Below, in pieces: positions 3,639-60,504 of a DNA stretch of 64,000 bases. The DNA lies in contig JAFYYV010000053.1 of the NCBI GenBank assembly GCA_017557405.1, positions 54,194 to 118,193 of the forward strand. Direction: 5' to 3'. This stretch comes from Prevotella sp. (GTDB lineage: Bacteria; Bacteroidota; Bacteroidia; Bacteroidales; Bacteroidaceae). Within the stretch, counting starts at the first letter, position 1; the number at the start of each line of letters is the position of its first letter. Under the pieces are notes generated by a model, which did not search any database, had not been told where the DNA came from, and saw only the letters and a program-made list of their open reading frames with translations. Position numbers and translations under genes: made by a program.

Positions 3639-4087
3639 CAAAAATTTATTCATAATTCAGAAGAATACACTTAATTTTTATTGTTCGTGGCGAAAATTTG
3701 ATGATTTTATCAAGTATTTGATGTTGATATGACAAATTCACTCATCTATTATATAATAGGCATGTGGTTCGGAAAGCAGATTTGTGAGATACGTCTCACT
3801 TTTTTAAAACGCATAAATGGCATGACGCATTTTTGCCATTTCCGCATTCCATAACCAATCCAAATCAAGAAAATGTTGCAAGGATGTGATTTTTTCCGTG
3901 TTTTCTTTTGGTTGTTTGGGGAGAAATATATACCTTTGTACCGATGTTTGTAACATGTTGATTATCAATGGTTATTTCCGTTTTTGCGACATGTATGCAA
4001 CATCCGGTGCTAACGCATTGATAGTCAGTTAGAGTCGTTTTCGAGGAGGTCCATTAATAAAAGTATAACATCAATAGATTACTCACA
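3639..4087. other. intergenic region without recognisable gene
   Basis: About 450 bp between the XRE promoter and the terminator of the VapE operon. It is AT-rich and has no open frame with coding character on either strand. A TAnnTTTG-like string (TACCTTTG, about 3931-3938, plus strand) exists, but no gene follows it. I see nothing else here. Confidence 0.5.
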
Positions 4088-6176: not shown

Positions 6177-6194
6177 ATATTATTCACTTTCGCC

Positions 6195-6304
6195 ACCGCT
6201 GCGTGGTAGCATCCCCACCGCATAGTGGTAATGACGTTACCGCATAGTGGTAGTGGTGTTACCACATACTGGTAACGATGTTACCGCATAGTGGTAACGA
6301 TTTT
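6195..6304. repeat. tandem array of five 22-bp units between the DUF6078 and vapE genes
   Basis: Five units start at 6195, 6217, 6239, 6261 and 6283, each exactly 22 bp. Read on the minus strand, the core is TACCACTATGCGGTA followed by a variable 7-base linker. The arms TACC/GGTA are inverted. The copy nearest vapE is the most diverged. The array sits inside the operon, so it is also transcribed. It could be an iteron-like origin, an operator, or an RNA-level element. Confidence 0.9.
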
Positions 6305-7237: not shown

Positions 7238-8065
7238 ATGAAGAAAGAAGAAATACTTGCTCTTTTTAAGAGCTATGAAGATGCAGTTTGCACAATAGAC
7301 GATACTGAATGCTGGAGTGCAAGAGATTTGCAGGAACTATTTGGTTACAAACTATGGCAAAACTTTACTAACGTGATTGCCAAGGCAAAAGAAGCATGTA
7401 CTAATGTTGGACAGGACGTTCTCGACCATTTTATTGACGTCAATAAAATGGTCGAATTAGGTAGTGGCGCAAAACGTGAGATTGATGACATTTTGCTCAC
7501 TCGCTATGCCTGTTATCTGGTGGCACAAAATGGCGACCCCCGTAAGCCGCAGATAGCATTTGCGCAGACCTACTTTGCAGTACAAACTCGACGGGCTGAG
7601 CTTATTGAACAACGACTTTTGGAAGTGGAACGTGTCAAGGCTCGTGCCAAATTGCAAGAGACAGAGCGAAAACTCTCTGGCATATTCTATGAGCGTGGTG
7701 TCAACGATCAGACCTTTGCCGTCATCCGTTCCAAAGGCGACCAGGCTCTTTTCCGCCTCAGCACCAATATGATGAAGCGCAAGATGGGTGTGCCCCAGAG
7801 TCGTCCTCTTGCAGACTTCCTGCCTACTATCAGCATCAAAGCCAAGGATTTCGCTGCCGAGATGACCAGCGTCAACGTTCAGGCAAAAGACCTTCAAGGC
7901 GAAGCATCTATTATGAAAGAACATGTTGACAACAATGCGGCCGTTCGTAAGATGCTAACTGAGCGCGGCATCATTCCAGAGAACCTGCCAGCAGCAGAAG
8001 ATGTTAAAAAAGTGGAGCGTCGCTTGGCAAGTGAAGAGAAGAAGATGTTGAAGAACAAGAAGTAA
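7238..8065 (+). CDS. dinD: DNA damage-inducible protein D
   Basis: A 275-residue protein matching DinD. The N-terminal ~110 residues are the Bro-N-like domain ([49 protein letters not shown]). A helical region with [13 protein letters not shown] follows, then the conserved C-terminal half ending [29 protein letters not shown] (quoted in parts: [21 protein letters not shown]). E. coli DinD inhibits RecA filament activities. In Bacteroidetes this gene is often found in defence or restriction loci, as here, ahead of a type III system. A full promoter lies upstream. Length is normal and the gene is intact. Confidence 0.92.
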
Positions 8066-28132: not shown

Positions 28133-28479
28133 AATTTTATTGTTGGCGTTTTGTGTTGTTAATTACTTTGACGTTTCAAGCGATTGGAAAGTTGCACCGC
28201 CCTCACATCATTGTCTTTTTTTCTATTCTTCTCTCCAGAGAGATATGATAATTACTGTGTATTCAATTTTACTAAGAATATAGCAGTTGGCTCATACAAA
28301 CTGATGTCTTCATCGTTTTCGCCATTGATGGCTTTTGAGCGTGTCATTTGTGGCTTTTGACCTCCCCATTTGTGGTCTTTGAGCATGTCATTTGTGGTCT
28401 TTGACAAGACTGTTTTGACGCTTTATGTTTGTAGGTCAACTGCTATATTGTTATCTTCATTTTGATGTTTATGTTTCAT
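28133..28479. other. intergenic region holding a 22-bp repeat array
   Basis: About 350 bp between the GntR gene and the outer-membrane barrel gene. The array at 28323-28410 is the main feature. No convincing promoter for the barrel gene was seen, and the stretch next to that gene is featureless to me. Confidence 0.6.
28323..28410. repeat. tandem array of four 22-bp units
   Basis: Units start at 28323, 28345, 28367 and 28389. Their shared core is CATTTGTGG-YY-TTTGA (reverse: TCAAAGACCACAAATGA) plus a variable 5-6 base linker. The period is exactly 22 bp in all four. On the reverse strand it aligns in register with the arrays at 40043 and 51582. Confidence 0.9.
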
Positions 28480-31673: not shown

Positions 31674-33149
31674 TCACAACCCTTTGGTAGAGACGACCAC
31701 ATGAGCCGACGAGTTGGAATAAATGGAAGGAACCGTATAGGAAACGCCGTTATAGGAAACGGTACCACCCTTGTTGACTTTCACACTCGTGTATGTCTTG
31801 AAGCCTTGCGAACCACTCTTCGGAGTTGACTTTTTGCCTCCAATGCCCATCAAAGTTCCTCCATTGATGGCAAAACCGAGATCGTGTTTGAAAGCAACGC
31901 CTTCATCGGAAGAAGCGGCTACATAGGACTCTCCACCATTAAAGGTAATTTTGCCATCGGTTTTCACACCATGTGGTTTGGTGTCAAGTGAGGCACTATA
32001 TGTGTATGTATCGCCTATAGTGGTAGCTATCAGTTTTCCACCATTGAACACGATGTTGCCTGTTGCATTCAAACCCTTGCCGCCATCACCTGTACTGGTG
32101 AGCGTCAACAAACCCGAAGACAACGTAAAGGCGCCTCCTGTCTTCAAAGCTGCAGCACTACTCAAATCCTTTTCAGTTGCATCATAAGCAGCATTACCCG
32201 ATGTGGTAATCGTTGCAGTAATGCCATTCACCACAACTGTCGAGTCGGCCTTCAAACCCTTCGATGTTGCGCCATTCACGTTGATGGTGAGCGTGCCACC
32301 ATTCAAGAAAACGAAGCCATTATTCTCATATTGGTCTTTCGTACCTTTGTTCACTCCCTTGAAGCCCACATCAATTCCGTCGCCTGTGCTAGTAATGTTC
32401 ATCACGCCACCATCCATCTTGAAATATTGGCCCACATGAACACCATCGCCCACAGCACCCGAAACGTTCAACGTTCCGCTTGTCATAGTCATGTATTCAT
32501 CGGCCGTCAGCGCATGCTTGGTGTTGCCCTTCAGGTTGAGGGTACCCGAGCCTTTGAATTCGGGGTGTCCGTTGATGTAGAAGCAAGCGTTTTGCTGCCC
32601 ACCTGCGCCATCAGTCAAAGTGTTTGTACCCATCAACGTGATGTCTATCTTCTTACCATCCTCGATGTCAATAGCAGCACCCGACGGGTTGGTCAACGAA
32701 AGATTGTTGAGGATGAAATTAGCTTTATAAGAACCATCCATGAAGAACGAACCGTTGGACGAAGATCCGCTAAGAGTATAATTCATCTCACGCTGCAAAG
32801 CATCGCTCTGAATGATGCTGACATGCGAGTCGGTGGCAGTCACCGTCAGATAGCGCGCAATATTACCTGCAACAACCACTTTGGCAGAGGTGCCGTTATA
32901 AACGACACTCACGGTATTGGAGGCAACGTTTCCATCAGCGACTACGATACTATCAATTTCGCTGATGTTGTATACACGGCCTTCAATCGTCAATGTCGTT
33001 CCATTGTTGAAAATCATTTTGCCCGTGGAAGCAGGATCATGACTATAGGTCACATTACCGACATTCACATTCAGCAACTGGGCATAAGCATCGCTAAATG
33101 ACAAATGACAAATGACAAATGATAAAAGGAGAAGGTAGAAACGTCTCAT
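31674..33149 (-). CDS. secreted beta-helix carbohydrate-binding (Cthe_2159/DUF4353-like) protein
   Basis: A 491-residue protein with a signal peptide (MRRFYLLLLSFVICHLSFS) and a long repetitive right-handed beta-helix. Turns such as IDIEDGKKIDITLMG, ALTADEYMTMTSGTLNVSG and GLNATGNIVFNGGKL recur at roughly 20-25 residue spacing. This is the pattern of the carbohydrate-binding Cthe_2159/DUF4353 family, which binds acidic polysaccharides such as pectate. The signal-peptide core VICHLSFS is encoded by a heptamer repeat (33096-33126). Its ATG overlaps the stop codon of the upstream gene (ATGA), so the two are translationally coupled. Confidence 0.82.
   Translation of the reverse strand: MRRFYLLLLSFVICHLSFSDAYAQLLNVNVGNVTYSHDPASTGKMIFNNGTTLTIEGRVYNISEIDSIVVADGNVASNTVSVVYNGTSAKVVVAGNIARYLTVTATDSHVSIIQSDALQREMNYTLSGSSSNGSFFMDGSYKANFILNNLSLTNPSGAAIDIEDGKKIDITLMGTNTLTDGAGGQQNACFYINGHPEFKGSGTLNLKGNTKHALTADEYMTMTSGTLNVSGAVGDGVHVGQYFKMDGGVMNITSTGDGIDVGFKGVNKGTKDQYENNGFVFLNGGTLTINVNGATSKGLKADSTVVVNGITATITTSGNAAYDATEKDLSSAAALKTGGAFTLSSGLLTLTSTGDGGKGLNATGNIVFNGGKLIATTIGDTYTYSASLDTKPHGVKTDGKITFNGGESYVAASSDEGVAFKHDLGFAINGGTLMGIGGKKSTPKSGSQGFKTYTSVKVNKGGTVSYNGVSYTVPSIYSNSSAHVVVSTKGL
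33096..33126. repeat. heptamer repeat (AAATGAC) encoding a signal peptide core
   Basis: Three copies of AAATGAC and one AAATGAT in tandem, within the signal-peptide codons of the beta-helix gene. Further copies of the same heptamer family are at 33620, 35619 and 35700. Confidence 0.9.
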
Positions 33150-33583: not shown

Positions 33584-33619
33584 ATGAAAAACATGAAAAA
33601 CCAACTCATTCACCTCATT

Positions 33620-33645
33620 AAATGATAAATCACAAATGATAAATG
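33620..33645. repeat. intergenic heptamer repeat (AAATGAT family)
   Basis: Three and a half heptamers (AAATGAT, AAATCAC, AAATGAT, AAATG) just downstream of the MATE gene. Same family as 33096-33126. Confidence 0.75.
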
Positions 33646-35016: not shown

Positions 35017-35693
35017 AAGTTGGCCGCTTTAGCCTTGAAAGCAGGCTGAGTGGCACCAGGATGATGATAAGAGACGAGCGTGATATCGAATACCAACGTG
35101 GAATAGGCAGGCACGACAACCGCTCCTGTATTGCTGTTCTTGTTGTCCTGGGTGCCATAACCCAAATTATAGGGGACATAGACTTTCCAACGATCGCCTA
35201 TGTGCATGTTCTGCAAGGCTGTGGAGAACCCATCTACCACGCCCGCTACAGCAAACTGGGCGGCTTTGGCGGTTGCAGGGTCGAATGTTCCCGAGAACGA
35301 CTGATCGAACACCCATCCTGACAGATAGTTGGTGGAAGGAATCAATCGACCTTCATACATGCAACGCACAGTATCGGTATAAAGTGGGCAACCCGCACCC
35401 TGACCTTCGTTGAGCACCTGAACGATGATATAATCGTCAATATCAAGATGCTCTGTTTCGGGCAACGACCATTGGCGAATGATCTTCCAATTGGAATCAC
35501 CCGATGAAATTCGCCGCTGGGTTTGGGCATAGAGATTGCTAAAATACTCCTCGTTGACCTCCTGCCAATTGGCAAACTCTTCCACAGTATCGTCCTGTTC
35601 GCTGCAGGCAACTACGCTAAACGACAAATGACAAATGATAAAAGATAGACTTATCATTCGCAACCATTTTTTTAGCGTTCTACAATTGTTCAT
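35010..35693 (-). CDS. FKBP-type peptidyl-prolyl isomerase lipoprotein
   Basis: A 227-residue protein taking ATG at 35693 (MNNCRTLKKWLRM); an ORF start at 35711 lies inside a heptamer repeat and is less likely. A lipoprotein signal ends SFSVVAC with the lipid-modified Cys. The FKBP domain occupies about 100-225: VRCMYEGRLI, GWVFDQSF, MHIGDRWKVYVPYNLGYG, VPAYSTLVFDITLVSYH. Such proteins help fold exported proteins in the periplasm. The signal-peptide core FIICHLSFS is encoded by heptamer repeats, as in the beta-helix gene. It is followed by an overlapping MATE gene. Confidence 0.88.
   Translation of the reverse strand: MNNCRTLKKWLRMISLSFIICHLSFSVVACSEQDDTVEEFANWQEVNEEYFSNLYAQTQRRISSGDSNWKIIRQWSLPETEHLDIDDYIIVQVLNEGQGAGCPLYTDTVRCMYEGRLIPSTNYLSGWVFDQSFSGTFDPATAKAAQFAVAGVVDGFSTALQNMHIGDRWKVYVPYNLGYGTQDNKNSNTGAVVVPAYSTLVFDITLVSYHHPGATQPAFKAKAANLW
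35619..35643. repeat. heptamer repeat in the FKBP signal peptide
   Basis: AAACGAC, AAATGAC, AAATGAT in tandem within the signal-peptide codons (protein ICHLSFS). Confidence 0.85.
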
Positions 35694-39119: not shown

Positions 39120-39186
39120 TGTTCTTTCTGTTTTAATGTCTAATGTTTATTGTTTCATGTTTCGATTTTTACGTCAAGCAACGTCA

Positions 39187-39811: not shown

Positions 39812-40479
39812 AAATAAAATGCAACAATCAACGAAATGCTTGTTTTCAACGAAAAAACAAACTGTTAAAAAATGATGAAATATCCTTACAAATGAGTGTT
39901 AGAAAAGCAACAGACAGCATGAATAACTCGAAAAACAACCCATTTTTGAGCTCCAAAATGCATTTTTATATAAACTCGTGAATATCAATAACTTACAAGT
40001 TTTTATAGATAATTACACCCAGAAACCATCAAGAAAAAAGGGTCAAAAGCCATTTTTCACGTTGTCAAAGCATAGCAATGAGCTCGTCAAAGCATAGGAA
40101 TGAGGCGATGAAAGCTATGCTTTGAGCGGACGAAAGCATAGCTTTGACAACGTCAAAGGGTATCAATGGGAGCGCAATTCGTCATAAAACATGCACAAAC
40201 TTGCCGTTTTGTGCAATATTTAAAGCTAGAGCACATTCTCCTGAAGTGTTAAATTTGGAAAAGAAACTTGACAAACTAATTCATCGTTTCATCGACATCT
40301 AGCAACCTTCAGCACTACAAACATCTCATCGGCGTGTTGTATTTTAAGCAGATTGCTTGCCGCTAGACAAATGAAAATAAAAAAGAAATTAATCGAACGG
40401 AATGCTGATTTATCAAGTTTTTTTCGTACTTTTGCGAGTAAATTGAACGAAAACCTGAATAAAGAGACGAAAAACAGAT
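39812..40479. other. long intergenic region with a 22-bp array and the topoisomerase promoter
   Basis: About 670 bp without a gene. It contains the six-unit array at 40043-40174 and a -7 box (TACTTTTG, 40427-40434, plus strand) 46 bases before the topoisomerase gene. The rest is AT-rich and shows no hairpin or coding frame that I can support. Confidence 0.7.
40043..40174. repeat. tandem array of six 22-bp units
   Basis: Units start at 40043, 40065, 40087, 40109, 40131 and 40153. The best copies read TGAAAGCTATGCTTTGA or CGAAAGCATAGCTTTGA, a near-perfect palindrome, plus a 5-base linker. Outer copies are more diverged. The first unit (TCAAAAGCCA) links this array to the one at 28323 on its reverse strand. 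Confidence 0.92.
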
Positions 40480-43400
40480 ATGAGCGACGACTTTGAAAAA
40501 GACGAAAACCTTGATTTGAACGACGAGGAAAAACAATTGGAAGACGAGGTGGTCGACACGGAAAGCAACGAGACGGAAGCCACTAACGATGCTGAAGAAG
40601 CCGAAGAAACCGAAAAAACAGGCGATGAAGAAGGCGAAGAGGAGGACGATGAAGCGACTGGCCATTCCGACTATCGCCCCGCGAATCGCTTTGATGCATC
40701 GGCCGTTCACCATCTGAGCGGTATGTATCAGAATTGGTTTCTCGACTATGCGAGCTATGTGATTCTCGAGCGTGCGGTTCCACACATCGGCGACGGCTTG
40801 AAACCCGTGCAACGACGCATTCTTCACTCCATGAAACGCATGGACGATGGTCGTTTCAACAAGGTTGCCAACATCGTGGGACACACCATGCAGTTCCACC
40901 CTCACGGGGACGCTTCCATCGGCGATGCTTTGGTGCAGATGGGTCAGAAAGAACTGCTCATCGACATGCAAGGCAACTGGGGTAACATCCTCACGGGCGA
41001 CCACGCTGCCGCTCCTCGATATATTGAGGCCAAACTGTCGAAATTCGCGCTCGATGTGGTGTTCAATCCGAAGACTACCGAATGGCAACTCAGCTACGAC
41101 GGACGAAACAAAGAGCCCATCACGCTGCCTGTCAAATTCCCGTTGCTGCTGGCTCAAGGGGCCGAAGGTATCGCTGTGGGATTGTCTTCGAAAATCCTTC
41201 CTCACAACCTCAACGAGATTTGCGACGCCGCCATCAGCTATCTGAAAGGCAAGCCGTTCACTCTCTACCCCGACTTCCCCACAGGAGGCTCCATCGATGT
41301 TTCAAAATACAACGATGGTCAACGAGGGGGTGTGTTGAAAGTGCGCGCTAAAATCGAGAAGCTCGACCAGAAAACACTCGTCATTCGCGAGATTCCGTTC
41401 TCGAAAAACACAGGTTCGCTCATCGATTCCATCCTGAAAGCCATTGAGAGAGGGAAAATCAAAGCCAAGAAGGTGGAAGACAACACCGCTGCAGAAGCCG
41501 AGATTCTCGTGCATCTGGCTCCTGGCGTTTCCAGCGATAAGACGCTCGACGCCCTCTACGCGTTCAGCGATTGCGAAATCAACATCTCGCCCAACTGCTG
41601 CGTTATCGAAAACCAAAAACCTTGTTTCCTGACTATCAGCGATGTTCTTCGCCATTCGGTGGAGACGACAATGGGGCTCTTGCGCAAGGAATTGCTCATT
41701 CGCAAAGGTGAACTCGAAGAACAATTCTTCTTCTCGTCGTTGGAGAAGATTTTCATCGAAGAGCGCATCTACAAGGACAAGAAGTTCGAGAATGCCGAGA
41801 ATATGGACGCTGTGGTGGCTCACATCGACAGCCGAATCAAGCCTTTCAAGGAGAGCCTCATCCGCGAAGTGACCCGCGAAGACATCCTTCGCCTCATGGA
41901 AATCAAGATGCAACGCATCCTGAAGTTCAACAAAGACAAGGCCGATGAACTGATGGCTCGCATCAAGGCTGAGATTGAACAGATTGACAACGATCTCGCC
42001 CATATGGTGAATGTCGCCATCGAGTGGTTCCGCTACATCAAAGAGAAATACGGAGCCGACCACCCACGCCGTACGGAGATTCGCAATTTCGACACCATCG
42101 AGGCGGCAAAGGTGGTGGAGGCCAACCAGAAACTCTATATCAACCGCAACGAGGGCTTTATAGGAACGGCGCTGAAGAAAGACGAATTCGTGTGCAACTG
42201 CTCCGACATCGACGATATCATCATCTTCTACAAAGACGGAAAATACAAGGTGGTGCGAGTGGCCGAGAAGATTTTCGTTGGCAAGAACATACAGCATCTG
42301 CAGGTCTATAAGAAGAACGACAAACGTACGGTTTACAATGTCGTTTACAGGGATGGTCGCAAGGGATATTGCTACATCAAGCGTTTCAATGTGCCCGCTG
42401 TGACTCGCGACCGCGAATACGATCTCACACAAGGCACGCCAGGTTCGAAGATCATGTATTTCACCGCCAACCCCAACGGAGAAGCAGAAACCATCAAGAT
42501 AACGCTCGAGGCAAGTCCTACCATCAAGAACATCTTCATGGTGCGCGACTTCTCGCAGATTGGCATCAAAGGACGAACATCCAAGGGAAATCTGCTCACT
42601 AAGAAGCCTGTGCATCGCGTTGGATTGAAGAGTCATGGACACTCCACGCTCGGTGGACGAAAGGTGTGGTGGGATCCCGATGTCAACCGCCTTAACTACG
42701 ACGAACACGGAAGGCTTCTCGGCGAATTCAACGAAGACGACCTCATCCTCGTGGTATTATCCGACTATTCCTATTACATGAGCAACTTCGACGCCAACAA
42801 CCACTACGAGAACAACATCTTGCTCATCGAGAAATTCGACCCTGAAAAGGTGTGGAGCGTTGTGCTTTACGATGCTGATAACGAAGGATATCCTTACATC
42901 AAACGTTTCACCTTGTCGCCCAACAAGCGCAGGCAAAGCCTCATAGGCGAGAATCCCAACTCGAAAGTTGAGCTATTCTCCGACCATCCTTATCCTCGCA
43001 TCCGCATTACGTTCGGCGGCATCGACAAGCATCGTGAACCGATGGACATTGAAATCGAGGAGTTTGTGATGGTGAAGAGCTTCAAGGCTAAAGGCAAGCG
43101 CATCACCACTTGGAAGATTGCCAACATCACGGAATTGGAGCCCACGCGCCAACCTGAACCTGAAATTGTCGAAGAAGAGAATAATGGAGACGACGTAGAA
43201 GAAGACGAGACAACGGAAACCGCCGAAGTCCAAGAAAACGTCGATACTTCGGAAGAAGTTGAATCGCAAAAGGAGGTAGAAACATCAAAAGATGTTGTTT
43301 CTGATGATGTCGAAACAAAAGAAGACGAAGAGTCTCCAGAAGTCGTCGATGAAGAATCTACTGTCGAAGACGTGCAACCCGTAGAAGAGAAACCTGTAAA

Positions 43401-43647
43401 GGAAGAGCAACCCATTGAGGATGAACCTATAGAGGAGAAACCAGTAGAGGAGCAACCAATAAAAGAGAAGAAACCTGTTGAGCCTACGCCACCCAAGGCC
43501 AGTAGGAAAAAGACTCCTAAAACAAATAGGAAGAAGAAAGAAGAAGAGGCTCCCGCACCGACCTATCATGATGACGAGCCCAGCCCTCAGTTCAAGTTTG
43601 ACCCCAAAACGGGGGAATTAAGCCTGTTCACAGATGACGAAATGTAG
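40480..43647 (+). CDS. parC: DNA topoisomerase IV subunit A
   Basis: A 1055-residue type IIA topoisomerase subunit. An acidic extension of about 70 residues precedes the core. The winged-helix/tower core contains DGLKPVQRRILHSM, MQFHPHGDAS, QGNWGNILTGD and the catalytic tyrosine Tyr181 in AAPRYIEAKLS. The C-terminal domain has degenerate gyrase A-like blades (GRTSKGNLLTKKP). A further ~150 residues of Glu/Val/Pro/Lys-rich sequence (VEEKPVKEEQPIEDEPIE type) end in a conserved short tail FKFDPKTGELSLF. The enzyme decatenates daughter chromosomes with ParE, which is not in the window. The downstream DUF3316 gene overlaps by 14 bp. Confidence 0.92.
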   Translation: MSDDFEKDENLDLNDEEKQLEDEVVDTESNETEATNDAEEAEETEKTGDEEGEEEDDEATGHSDYRPANRFDASAVHHLSGMYQNWFLDYASYVILERAVPHIGDGLKPVQRRILHSMKRMDDGRFNKVANIVGHTMQFHPHGDASIGDALVQMGQKELLIDMQGNWGNILTGDHAAAPRYIEAKLSKFALDVVFNPKTTEWQLSYDGRNKEPITLPVKFPLLLAQGAEGIAVGLSSKILPHNLNEICDAAISYLKGKPFTLYPDFPTGGSIDVSKYNDGQRGGVLKVRAKIEKLDQKTLVIREIPFSKNTGSLIDSILKAIERGKIKAKKVEDNTAAEAEILVHLAPGVSSDKTLDALYAFSDCEINISPNCCVIENQKPCFLTISDVLRHSVETTMGLLRKELLIRKGELEEQFFFSSLEKIFIEERIYKDKKFENAENMDAVVAHIDSRIKPFKESLIREVTREDILRLMEIKMQRILKFNKDKADELMARIKAEIEQIDNDLAHMVNVAIEWFRYIKEKYGADHPRRTEIRNFDTIEAAKVVEANQKLYINRNEGFIGTALKKDEFVCNCSDIDDIIIFYKDGKYKVVRVAEKIFVGKNIQHLQVYKKNDKRTVYNVVYRDGRKGYCYIKRFNVPAVTRDREYDLTQGTPGSKIMYFTANPNGEAETIKITLEASPTIKNIFMVRDFSQIGIKGRTSKGNLLTKKPVHRVGLKSHGHSTLGGRKVWWDPDVNRLNYDEHGRLLGEFNEDDLILVVLSDYSYYMSNFDANNHYENNILLIEKFDPEKVWSVVLYDADNEGYPYIKRFTLSPNKRRQSLIGENPNSKVELFSDHPYPRIRITFGGIDKHREPMDIEIEEFVMVKSFKAKGKRITTWKIANITELEPTRQPEPEIVEEENNGDDVEEDETTETAEVQENVDTSEEVESQKEVETSKDVVSDDVETKEDEESPEVVDEESTVEDVQPVEEKPVKEEQPIEDEPIEEKPVEEQPIKEKKPVEPTPPKASRKKTPKTNRKKKEEEAPAPTYHDDEPSPQFKFDPKTGELSLFTDDEM

Positions 43648-51537: not shown

Positions 51538-51581
51538 ACACAGAGTGCACATAACGTGCAAACAAAAAGCAAACAGAATTG

Positions 51582-51691
51582 CCACATGTATCATCTGAGC
51601 TGGTCAAAGCATATCTTTGAGCGGCTCAGATGATAGTTTTGACACCCTCAAAGCATAGCTGTGACAACGCCATTTCATGCATTTGAGTTTA
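51582..51691. repeat. tandem array of about five 22-bp units
   Basis: Units at 51582, 51604, 51626, 51648 and 51670, the outer two diverged. The best copies read TCAAAGCATATCTTTGA and TCAAAGCATAGCTGTGA plus a 5-base linker. Same family and register as 40043-40174. Confidence 0.85.
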
Positions 51692-52060
51692 GGCCGTGAA
51701 ATTCTCTGTATTAGGTCAACTCCAATAGCATTACTTTCACAAAAAGGTATCACAATTGTTCCAATTAGTAGTGAAAAATGGCAATTGTTACTTCCATTTT
51801 CTGCTACATGACTGCCATTTAAGTACAAAACACCTTCCAAATGAGGTTATGATGTTGATTTTTAGAATCGCCTAAATGTGCGCAAAGTGTAGGGAAAAAC
51901 ATCGAAACGAGCTATTTTTGCATGCATTTTGAGGCCTTTTAGAGGAAAAATCAGCATGTTTTTGTCCTTTTTACAGGTTTTGAATCGCAGATGCAGGACC
52001 TTTACCAATTCGTATCTTGTTGATAATCAGCCTTTTAGAGAAAAATAAAATAACCAAAGC

Positions 52061-59369: not shown

Positions 59370-60206
59370 ATGTACGACCACAAAATTCATTACTGCTTCA
59401 CGCTGTCCGAGGAACAGATGAAGTATCTACGCAGCAAGAAGTACAAGATTGACCGCATGGAATGCTTCATGTCTCTTGTAGAACTTGCTGAACGCGAAAC
59501 GAAACTGGTACAGATAAGCAAGACTCAACAAGTTGAAATCTTGCCTGCCCAAGTGATGGTTGATAACACCCAGCTTGCTAAGCTTTGGGACAAAGACCGC
59601 AAGACTGTCCCGAAGATTTTGGAGGCTATGGAATCTCTGGGTATTTCCTCTTCACAGAAGGTGGGCGAAAACCGCATCCATACGCTTCATGCTCTTTCTG
59701 GATGGTATGTAGATGGCAAGCTCGTCAAGAATCCATTTGCAACAAGAAGGAATGCCGACGGCACTGCAATCGTCACCGCGGAAGTTCCACCTGCAAGAGT
59801 CATCACCATTGAGGTGTCGGACGATAAAAACATTGGTGAGGAAGGTTCTGGATCTGATAGCGACAATTCCCAAGTTGGAAACGTGGGCGTGATTCAGTCT
59901 GCCGATGGCAATGTTTCCCATACATCATTACAATCTAATGACAATGGCTACGTGGGTAAGTCTGAGACGGACGGAAAACATTCCGAATCTCCTCACAATG
60001 ACAATTCTGCTCACTCTGACGGCACACCTTCTTCCTATACAGAAGCCGATGGCAGTCAGAATGAAGGGAAAGGAAATGAGCATTCATCAGCACAGCAGGA
60101 AGGACAGCCACCACAGCCTGATGACATCCCATCCGAAGGCACAGGAGATTACTTCAGGAAGCCTGATGGCTACAACCCCACTAATGGTTTCCAAAGTGAC
60201 AAGTGA
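59370..60206 (+). CDS. winged-helix-like protein with low-complexity tail, mobilizable element
   Basis: A 278-residue protein. The first ~125 residues look like a winged helix or replication-initiator-like domain (TQLAKLWDKDRKTVPKILEA contains a clear HTH, followed by MESLGISSSQKVGENRIHTL). From about residue 155 the chain is a Ser/Asp/Gly/Asn-rich low-complexity tail (GSGSDSDNSQVGNVGV and similar), likely disordered. I cannot name the family. It follows the excisionase-like gene by 12 bp and precedes the candidate oriT, so a role in regulating or building the relaxosome is plausible. Confidence 0.7.
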   Translation: MYDHKIHYCFTLSEEQMKYLRSKKYKIDRMECFMSLVELAERETKLVQISKTQQVEILPAQVMVDNTQLAKLWDKDRKTVPKILEAMESLGISSSQKVGENRIHTLHALSGWYVDGKLVKNPFATRRNADGTAIVTAEVPPARVITIEVSDDKNIGEEGSGSDSDNSQVGNVGVIQSADGNVSHTSLQSNDNGYVGKSETDGKHSESPHNDNSAHSDGTPSSYTEADGSQNEGKGNEHSSAQQEGQPPQPDDIPSEGTGDYFRKPDGYNPTNGFQSDK

Positions 60207-60504
60207 CAGCCTTGAAGGACTCGGACTGCGGACTGCAACCTACACAGCCCAACAATCCCAAGGGACGTTTGACGATACAGGATGCAAGGAAAACCGAAAC
60301 GGACTTCTAAGCCCTGACGGGAACTTTGGAGTTAAAAGCCCCGACATTTTAGAGGGACTTTTCGAGAAATCCTTTTGTAGTACAAAACAGGTGCCCCTGT
60401 TTCTGTCCTCCTAAAAGTTTCTCTGGCTACTCGCAGGCTCGCAGACCGTGTCCTTATTTCTAACAGTTTTATATTCAATCCCCTTTCATTAAAAGATATT
60501 GACA
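60207..60504. other. candidate oriT region upstream of mobC
   Basis: Two adjoining palindromes at 60373-60402: TTTTGTA-G-TACAAAA and AAACAGG-TGCC-CCTGTTT. A direct repeat CTCGCAG (twice, about 60434-60450) and repeated GGACTGC lie in the same 300 bp. Location directly upstream of MobC and relaxase genes is where origins of transfer of such elements lie. The nick site is not known. Confidence 0.5.

Follow-up and report, generated by a model that had tools for sequence, protein, structure and literature searches.

Tandem 22-bp palindromic arrays with constant spacing and changing arms recur in intergenic DNA of Prevotella and its relatives

Short palindromes strung together at a pitch of 22 bp recur across many species of Prevotella and related genera, mainly between genes, with arms that change from one species to another and a spacing and dyad symmetry that do not. 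We describe them from a window (the whole stretch of DNA analyzed, 64,000 nucleotides of a Prevotella sp. contig), from the genome to which it belongs (here the home genome), and from related genomes. The family-wide 22-bp architecture with changing arms appears to be new as far as the open-licence literature goes, whereas PINSR, which is probably one of its members, was already known. In our preferred reading, which we hold tentatively and consider possible rather than likely, the arrays are an intergenic DNA lattice akin to BIMEs and REPs, recognized in its double-stranded form by a dimeric protein of drifting specificity.

The window holds four such arrays, all with a period of exactly 22. 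An earlier note on this DNA, made from the sequence alone, had listed the same four, and all of them are real, including the six exact 22-bp units at 40043-40174 ahead of a gene that we take, from its own sequence and its earlier label, to encode a topoisomerase. The features are as follows.

40043..40174, plus strand: focal array of six 22-bp units, each a 17-bp imperfect palindrome and a 5-bp linker
6193..6302, no strand assigned: array of five 22-bp units with arms TTACC/GGTAA
28322..28404, minus strand: array of four 22-bp units of the TCATTTGTGGTCTTTGA type (reverse complement TCAAAGACCACAAATGA)
51582..51686, minus strand: array of five 22-bp units of the TCAAAG and TCAGATG types
51739..51978, minus strand: remnant of a dispersed non-coding element (class B), with the 51582 array at its edge
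40480..43647, plus strand: neighboring gene, presumably topoisomerase IV/gyrase A-like, outside the element

Our palindromic-tandem detector called three of the four arrays; the one at 28322 falls below its threshold and was found by Tandem Repeats Finder and a unit scan. Tandem Repeats Finder likewise reported three of the four at period 22, missing the one at 51582. The focal array combines arms of the TCAAAG/CTTTGA and TCAAAG/CAATGA types. A CTATG or CATAG center is clear in three arrays, as had been noted, and the centers of the 28322 array read GTGGT, GTGGC, and GATGG. The further claim that arms differ between the arrays of the window holds for 6193 alone, whose TTACC/GGTAA arms occur at two sites in the home genome, this one included; the arrays at 40043, 28322, and 51582 belong to one arm family (TCA-N11-TGA). 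The TCATTTGTGGTCTTTGA/TCAAAGACCACAAATGA unit type of the 28322 array is also present elsewhere in the home genome.

That these tandem 22-mers form a family more frequent than chance, as the earlier note proposed, is borne out in the home genome, where three consecutive units of the form TCA-N11-TGA-N5 gave 142 exact matches in 3.56 Mb and the reversed control gave none. A BLAST search of the 40043 array against the same genome returned at least 43 match rows, itself included, among the best 40 of 135 candidates. For a wider view, the topoisomerase gene served as the anchor for fetching 80 related loci, which with the window make up 1.50 Mb; in nearly every case their titles name Prevotella, Prevotellaceae, or close kin. 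Here four-unit palindromic tandems were called 43 times at period 22 and 0 to 10 times at each other period between 12 and 44; the search called none in a first-order Markov control. Extending and merging the period-22 calls at slightly looser identity left 38 arrays spread over 29 of the 81 sources, a patchy distribution in which 28 of the 80 related loci carry one.

Period 22 also stands out when the search is blind to symmetry. Tandems were collected by unit identity alone from 135 stretches (2.44 Mb) of the genus and its relatives, and palindromy was asked of them only afterwards; 61 of 102 tandems at period 22 were palindromic, compared with 27 of 426 at 17 other periods. By source, the counts at period 22 and at the other periods were 26/49 and 22/289 in the window and 80 loci, 19/21 and 1/6 in genome G108, 7/12 and 0/25 in G028, 7/8 and 0/27 in G085, 1/4 and 4/59 in ten more genus members, and 1/8 and 0/20 in G032, so that the tie between period and palindromy is not clear in two of the six sources. 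The last four named genomes were picked for a reason rather than at random, the G028 stretches around pattern matches and G108 and G085 as possible P. intermedia, and array densities in them are not those of random samples. The home genome was sampled as stretches rather than whole, and its loci L009-L047, selected by likeness to the 40043 array, are uninformative about frequency.

The ten more genus members (17 stretches, 289 kb) held seven arrays, with six hits at period 22 against 0 to 2 elsewhere, and a further 20 stretches from other families within the order (273 kb in all, including several short contigs) yielded a single weak array; on this small sample, the kind seems largely confined to Prevotellaceae. 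One specific two-unit pattern had no matches in the phage collection viral_contigs.

Across many species, the arms vary while the 22-bp pitch and the dyad are kept, which extends to relatives what had first been suggested from the window. Arms seen in other species include GTTTAG/CTAAAC, TTACACGG, GAAGTC/GACTTC, TGGTAC/GTACCA, CGAAAC/GTTTCG, ATTCCCA/TGGGAAC, CAAAATAG/CTATTTTG, and CAAWWTCGCC. Each of the four genomes that we examined closely has one dominant arm family: TCAAAG in the home genome, TCAGGA in G028 (7 of 10 arrays in 160 kb), CAAAAS in G108 (26 calls in 200 kb, and none at 19 other periods from 14 to 33), and GAAGTC in G176 (at least 84 match rows over both strands, among the best 40 of 80 candidates). 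Minor families are low in copy number, such as TGGTA with three in G174, and families can meet within one array, as at L148 8747, where a TGATTAG unit stands among TCAGGA units. As an exact three-unit match, the TCA/TGA frame of the home genome was found in G028 only, among 35 other genus members.

Sources were also compared at a single site. An array starts 217 to 462 bp upstream of the topoisomerase gene in 10 of the 81 sources, with several unrelated arm families; upstream DNA was short or missing in some sources, and one (L065) gave no start. Either a change of arms in place or separate insertion of arrays may lie behind these differences. Presence or absence of an array in the glyS-topoisomerase gap varies between species. 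In one close pair, L095 and L100, the arrays have four units each and differ by substitutions only. Arrays with different arms were also observed near tnaA, at 7 of 29 tnaA loci (L186, L188, L190, L193, L195, L196, and L203).

The anatomy of the unit is more regular than its letters. Each unit is a 17-bp imperfect palindrome followed by a 5-bp linker, and conservation within arrays is highest at unit positions 3-4 and 14-15 and falls to minima at positions 9 and 20 (48 arrays, 249 units). An array is a lattice whose half-sites recur every 11 bp and alternate in orientation, with dyads at both the unit center and the linker center. The coevolution of arms raised in the earlier note is also seen, in that positions covary about the dyad more than about any shifted dyad: each of the six sets has its maximum at shift 0, and lesser positive covariation is seen at shifts of 1 to 2 in G108 and of +2 in G176. 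The size of this effect is inflated, because the arrays were preselected as palindromic and their copies are related.

Individual pairs behave very differently. Among 203 distinct units of the home genome, the outer pairs are mostly kept (T-A in 148, C-G in 111, A-T in 172), and pairs 4-14 and 5-13, farther in, are frequently A-A or T-T and not clearly above column shuffles, which reached them in 83 and 25 of 500 trials. At pair 8-10, 10 of 203 units are complementary where 70 would be expected, far below the shuffles; pairs 6-12 and 7-11 lie far above them (reached by 0 of 500). Outer pairs kept and inner pairs broken are as expected of half-sites, not of hairpins, and by hand count two frequent units of the home genome pair at few of eight positions (TCAAAGACCACAAATGA at three, TCAAAGCTATGGAATGA at four). 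Pairs not clearly above shuffles in other genomes are 4-14 and 7-11 in G085, 1-17 and 8-10 in G108, and 6-12 and 8-10 in G028; all eight pairs exceed shuffles in G176.

Mismatches bear on whether the units act as DNA or as RNA. A.C mismatches number 137 and G.T mismatches 121 (48 arrays, 249 units), and no overall excess of G.T over A.C was found (73/76 in the home genome, 45/54 in G108, 23/15 in G028, 11/7 in G085, and 75/91 in the 80 loci). Single arrays of the 80 loci lean toward either G.T or A.C beyond what binomial sampling would produce (chi2/df 1.96, 33 arrays), and the other sets range from 0.62 to 1.23, with 0.62 in the home genome and 0.65 in G108. Since units of one array share descent, we read this lean as non-independence, although an RNA would leave a similar mark.

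Some arrays are part of longer dispersed elements. In the home genome, 12 copies of a non-coding element of about 190 to 200 bp (class A) could be aligned, carrying arrays and the inverted sequences GACAAAATGTAAAGC/GCTTACATTTTGTC. A second element (class B) was aligned over about 390 bp in nine copies and measures about 690 bp where it is fullest; outside the window, copies, several of them partial, lie in L023, L030, L033-L037, L039, and L047. In the window, the 51582 array and the class B remnant together span 51575-51978. The class B copy at L035 contains, at 3852-3984, a segment of about 133 bp with 11-bp inverted ends TGTAAAGAAAA/TTTTCTTTACA, possibly a separate small element. Many arrays of the home genome are bare, lying outside any longer element. 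Five bare ones (L015, L017, L028, L038, and L044) start after TTTTG or CGTTG and end in CAAAA, CAAAC, CAAAG, or CAAAT, as if their ends were defined. Seven TCAGG arrays of G028 showed no common flanks by eye.

Most arrays of G108 lie within one element, which is exactly 186 bp long in 24 of 25 aligned copies, with variable letters in its flanks. The 25 were selected manually out of 86 rows, most of which were other registers or strands of the same arrays or chance hits, and one copy with units out of register (L222:9600) was excluded from the alignment; with it included, the length is unchanged in 24 of 26. The element ends in imperfect terminal inverted repeats, TGTAAATATTTTTC and GAATTATCTTTACA (TGTAAA/TTTACA), and no target duplication was seen by eye in these copies. 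An empty-site search of 12 genomes, G108 among them, gave a match across the element in G108 itself only. Units 2 and 4 of the element are complementary to each other in 92% of 425 cells, with two of the 25 copies (L222:11198 and L215:993) breaking this scheme or the unit order by hand count. An alternative complementary block occurs in 9 of the 25 copies, with changes on both sides at four pair positions. These compensatory blocks go back to a single evolutionary event or a small number of them, and RNAalifold gives the element a small covariation term (-0.9).

The location of the arrays is mainly intergenic. None of 41 tabulated arrays of the home genome lies inside an open reading frame of at least 80 amino acids, and a crude caller placed 16 of 119 arrays inside a frame of at least 90 amino acids (eight in G108, one in G085, seven in the 80 loci, none in the home genome or G028). 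Among gaps of at least 150 bp, arrays occur in tandem, convergent, and divergent ones, and a terminator or promoter role read from gene context was rejected because all three kinds carry them. Convergent gene pairs account for 28 of 88 array-bearing gaps and 84 of 375 array-free gaps, an over-representation that makes a role at 3' ends possible. The excess comes from G108 (8/18 versus 8/46), the home genome (10/34 versus 7/45), and G028 (4/8 versus 7/24), with none in the 80 loci (5/22 versus 56/235) or G085 (1/6 versus 6/25).

Two flanking motifs were noticed. The first is WATCAANNNNTTR, which we take to be an IHF-like consensus; in the 80 loci, 4 of 35 arrays have a strict match no more than 88 bp away, at a density of 0.66 per kb near arrays versus 0.08 per kb farther off, figures to be read with the reservation that the motif was spotted post hoc, first in the G108 element, and that the background windows were unmatched for intergenic DNA. 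Strict sites were absent near the arrays of G176, G028, and G085, and the home genome encodes 11 matches to the HU/IHF family PF00216. The second motif, TAAC-N4-TG, was found five times beside 50 arrays (in L059, L062, L071, L080, and L115), with 0.9 expected; it was also spotted by eye and post hoc, varies in orientation, and falls outside the 25 top patterns of an unbiased ranking. A similar sequence was seen by eye in L082 and the G108 element. By eye, a longer module resembling ATAAC-N4-TGATTATCAA-N4-TTAC adjoins arrays with unrelated arms in either orientation at L059, L062, L071, and L082, at L115, and in the elements of L215-L224.

How much of this had been described before? The earlier note knew of no named element with these features, and for the family-wide plan that stands, in that no paper we found in the open-licence literature deals with palindromic arrays of 22-bp pitch and changing arms in Prevotella. 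It holds less well for single members, since one is probably PINSR and BrickBuilt is similar in kind. PINSR, described in 2015, is a 188-bp intergenic non-coding repeat of P. intermedia, present 177 times in one strain and 184 times (in 2.70 Mb) in another; the available part of its description has it downstream of tnaA, confined to four related species, lacking terminal inverted repeats, and conserved at about three quarters of its sites between the two strains (PMC4755523). Likened by that published description, the 186-bp element of G108 is probably PINSR or a near twin: its length is about the same, it is high in copy number, and one copy lies about 240 bp past a tnaA match. We say no more than probably because the G108 element has imperfect terminal inverted repeats and, at about 26 copies in 200 kb, about twice the density of PINSR. 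In the sections of PMC4755523 accessible to us, no plan of 22-bp palindromic units is given, whereas here that plan recurs family-wide with other arms.

The BrickBuilt MITE of Porphyromonas gingivalis is built on a 23-nucleotide tandem repeat with a leader and a tail and is present in 19 copies; as far as the available text goes, it resembles the arrays in being intergenic short tandems with dyad symmetry and predicted stem-loops and differs in its 23-nucleotide repeat, its 1 to about 23 units with some indels, and its restriction to one species group (PMC4596501). The same portion of text uses neither "palindrom-" nor "hairpin."

REPs and BIMEs, according to the portions of two papers that we could consult, are extragenic palindromes with regular spacing and alternating orientation, species-specific and high in copy number; REPs coevolve with RAYT transposases, BIMEs bind IHF and gyrase (BIME-1 of Escherichia coli binds IHF), and CGTC-tagged REPs are known from Bacteroidetes (PMC2817692, PMC3733652). 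The Prevotella arrays share the extragenic location, alternating orientation, regular spacing, and high copy number and differ in their 22-bp pitch and 5-bp linkers. At the palindrome base, a GTAG/CTAC tag was present in 17 of 457 units of a mixed set versus 18 after shuffling of letters (and in 1 of 222 units of the home genome), and a CGTC/GACG tag likewise in 17 of 457 versus 18; the latter occurs in 25 of 222 units of the home genome, through variable linkers. A RAYT search of the home genome gave one weak PF01797 match (24.9 bits, cut-off 23), and the 3.2-kb locus of that gene holds no two TCA-N11-TGA units 22 bp apart, so a REP/RAYT link was rejected. With no GTAG tag beyond chance and, in the home genome, no linked transposase, these are not classical REPs. 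CRISPR arrays differ in that a 17-bp unit and 5-bp linker are far too short. A structured-RNA survey of the human microbiome, in its accessible part, describes 250 palindromic candidates, of which 230 resemble terminators, and near uvrC two candidates restricted to Prevotella (PMC8040213). Rfam gave no match at the gathering score for the window and five array loci, and one sub-threshold match in L012.

A single pitch, an 11-bp alternation, no overall strand signature, and half-sites without hairpins are best fitted by double-stranded DNA and a dimeric protein. We infer such a reader. Half-sites of 6 to 7 bp, placed every 11 bp in alternating orientation, would form an intergenic element family of Prevotellaceae, and the arrays would act as double-stranded DNA, offering a cooperative platform to a dimeric, sequence-reading protein whose dimers would be spaced two turns apart along the same face of the helix, as with enterobacterial BIME arrays. 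A locally favored array would be copied through each genome; as the specificity of the reader shifted, arms would be replaced, and the spacing, set by protein-protein contact, would stay. By analogy with BIMEs, the platform might bend or bridge the chromosome, act as a supercoiling barrier, or give the element a foothold for spreading. The tie of palindromy to period 22 (61 of 102 versus 27 of 426) and the constant 186 bp of the G108 copies argue for this reading, and the IHF-like sites near arrays, with the binding of IHF by E. coli BIME-1, are a small extra hint. Several arm families per genome and the mixed array at L148 argue against one specific protein, the complementarity of units 2 and 4 in G108 is more easily explained by strand pairing, and the lean to convergent gaps and the per-array mismatch lean are left unexplained. 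Strand pairing and a mobile-element origin are both compatible with the dimer-bound lattice and need not exclude it. A bolder version, in which geometry alone defines the element class across a whole bacterial family, half-site letters are exchanged from species to species, and a coevolving reader both maintains the 11-bp lattice and drives the winning array through the genome, strikes us as rather doubtful.

The earlier note had suggested a protein that reads shape. If single units or pairs of units were extruded as hairpins or cruciforms, from supercoiled or single-stranded DNA, and a protein read their shape, any sequence would serve. Unrelated arms on a single geometry would follow, and so would the peak of covariation at shift 0 in six of six sets, the eight pairs above shuffles in G176, and the 92% pairing of units 2 and 4 in G108 with its two-sided changes at four positions. 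We nevertheless consider this unlikely, as frequent units of the home genome pair poorly, several pairs in the home genome, G085, G108, and G028 are not clearly above shuffles, the dominant arms of the home genome mostly keep TCA/TGA in the manner of sequence half-sites, and hairpins have no need of a strict 22-bp pitch. More unlikely again, in our judgment, is that the arrays are inner sites of non-autonomous MITE- or REP-like elements, with the geometry the footprint of a transposase family. The longer elements of the home genome (12 and 9 copies aligned) and of G108 (25), the terminal TGTAAA/TTTACA of the latter, and families that differ by species as REPs do all favor such an origin. It sits poorly with the G028 TCAGG arrays that share no flanks, the many bare arrays of the home genome, and the lack of target duplications by eye in G108. 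The home genome has one weak Y1 transposase without adjoining tandem units, and PINSR, in the part of its description available, has no terminal inverted repeats and shares about three quarters of its sites between two strains (PMC4755523).

Transcription of the arrays as strings of stem-loops, serving as terminators, stability elements, or decoy RNAs, we regard as quite improbable. The arrays do fold well (mean z of -3.9 to -5.2), as any inverted repeat should. The per-array mismatch lean in the 80 loci, the lean to convergent gaps in G108, the home genome, and G028, and the transcription of BrickBuilt recorded in the accessible part of its description (PMC4596501) would all fit. Against it, G.T shows no overall excess, the lean is below binomial in the home genome and G108 (0.62 and 0.65), tandem, convergent, and divergent gaps carry arrays alike, and Rfam gave nothing at its gathering score for the window and five array loci. 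Just as improbable is an origin without function, by slippage expansion, spread by recombination, and palindromy through templated correction. Arms that are alike within one array and the variable presence at the glyS-topoisomerase gap agree with such a process, but one free of selection gives no reason for 22 rather than 20, 21, 23, or 24, and the length is nearly constant in 25 diverged G108 copies.

If the match to PINSR is right, what was supposed to be an oddity of one group becomes a member of a family-wide architecture. With a fixed spacing and a varying sequence, the arrays amount to a natural experiment in gut, rumen, and oral bacteria, and they return to the old REP and BIME question of what reads arrays of extragenic palindromes. 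Search rules that ask for period 22, a dyad, and any arms find what similarity searches with a single consensus miss.

Other tandems were seen along the way. In G032, L160 carries at 7674-8020 sixteen direct 22-bp tandem copies of AGTGAACCTTGCTCTGAacccg, with a weak dyad and no clear palindrome; the best four of these units just reach the palindrome threshold, and the reversed control pattern had 15 forward and 15 reverse matches in G032. The window also contains short period-7 tandems with units AAATGAC, TAAATGA, TTTAATG, and AAGTGAC at 33096-33126, 33619-33645, 35618-35647, 39132-39162, and 60194-60208, and a similar run, ATGACAAATGACAAATGAC, adjoins an array in L024.
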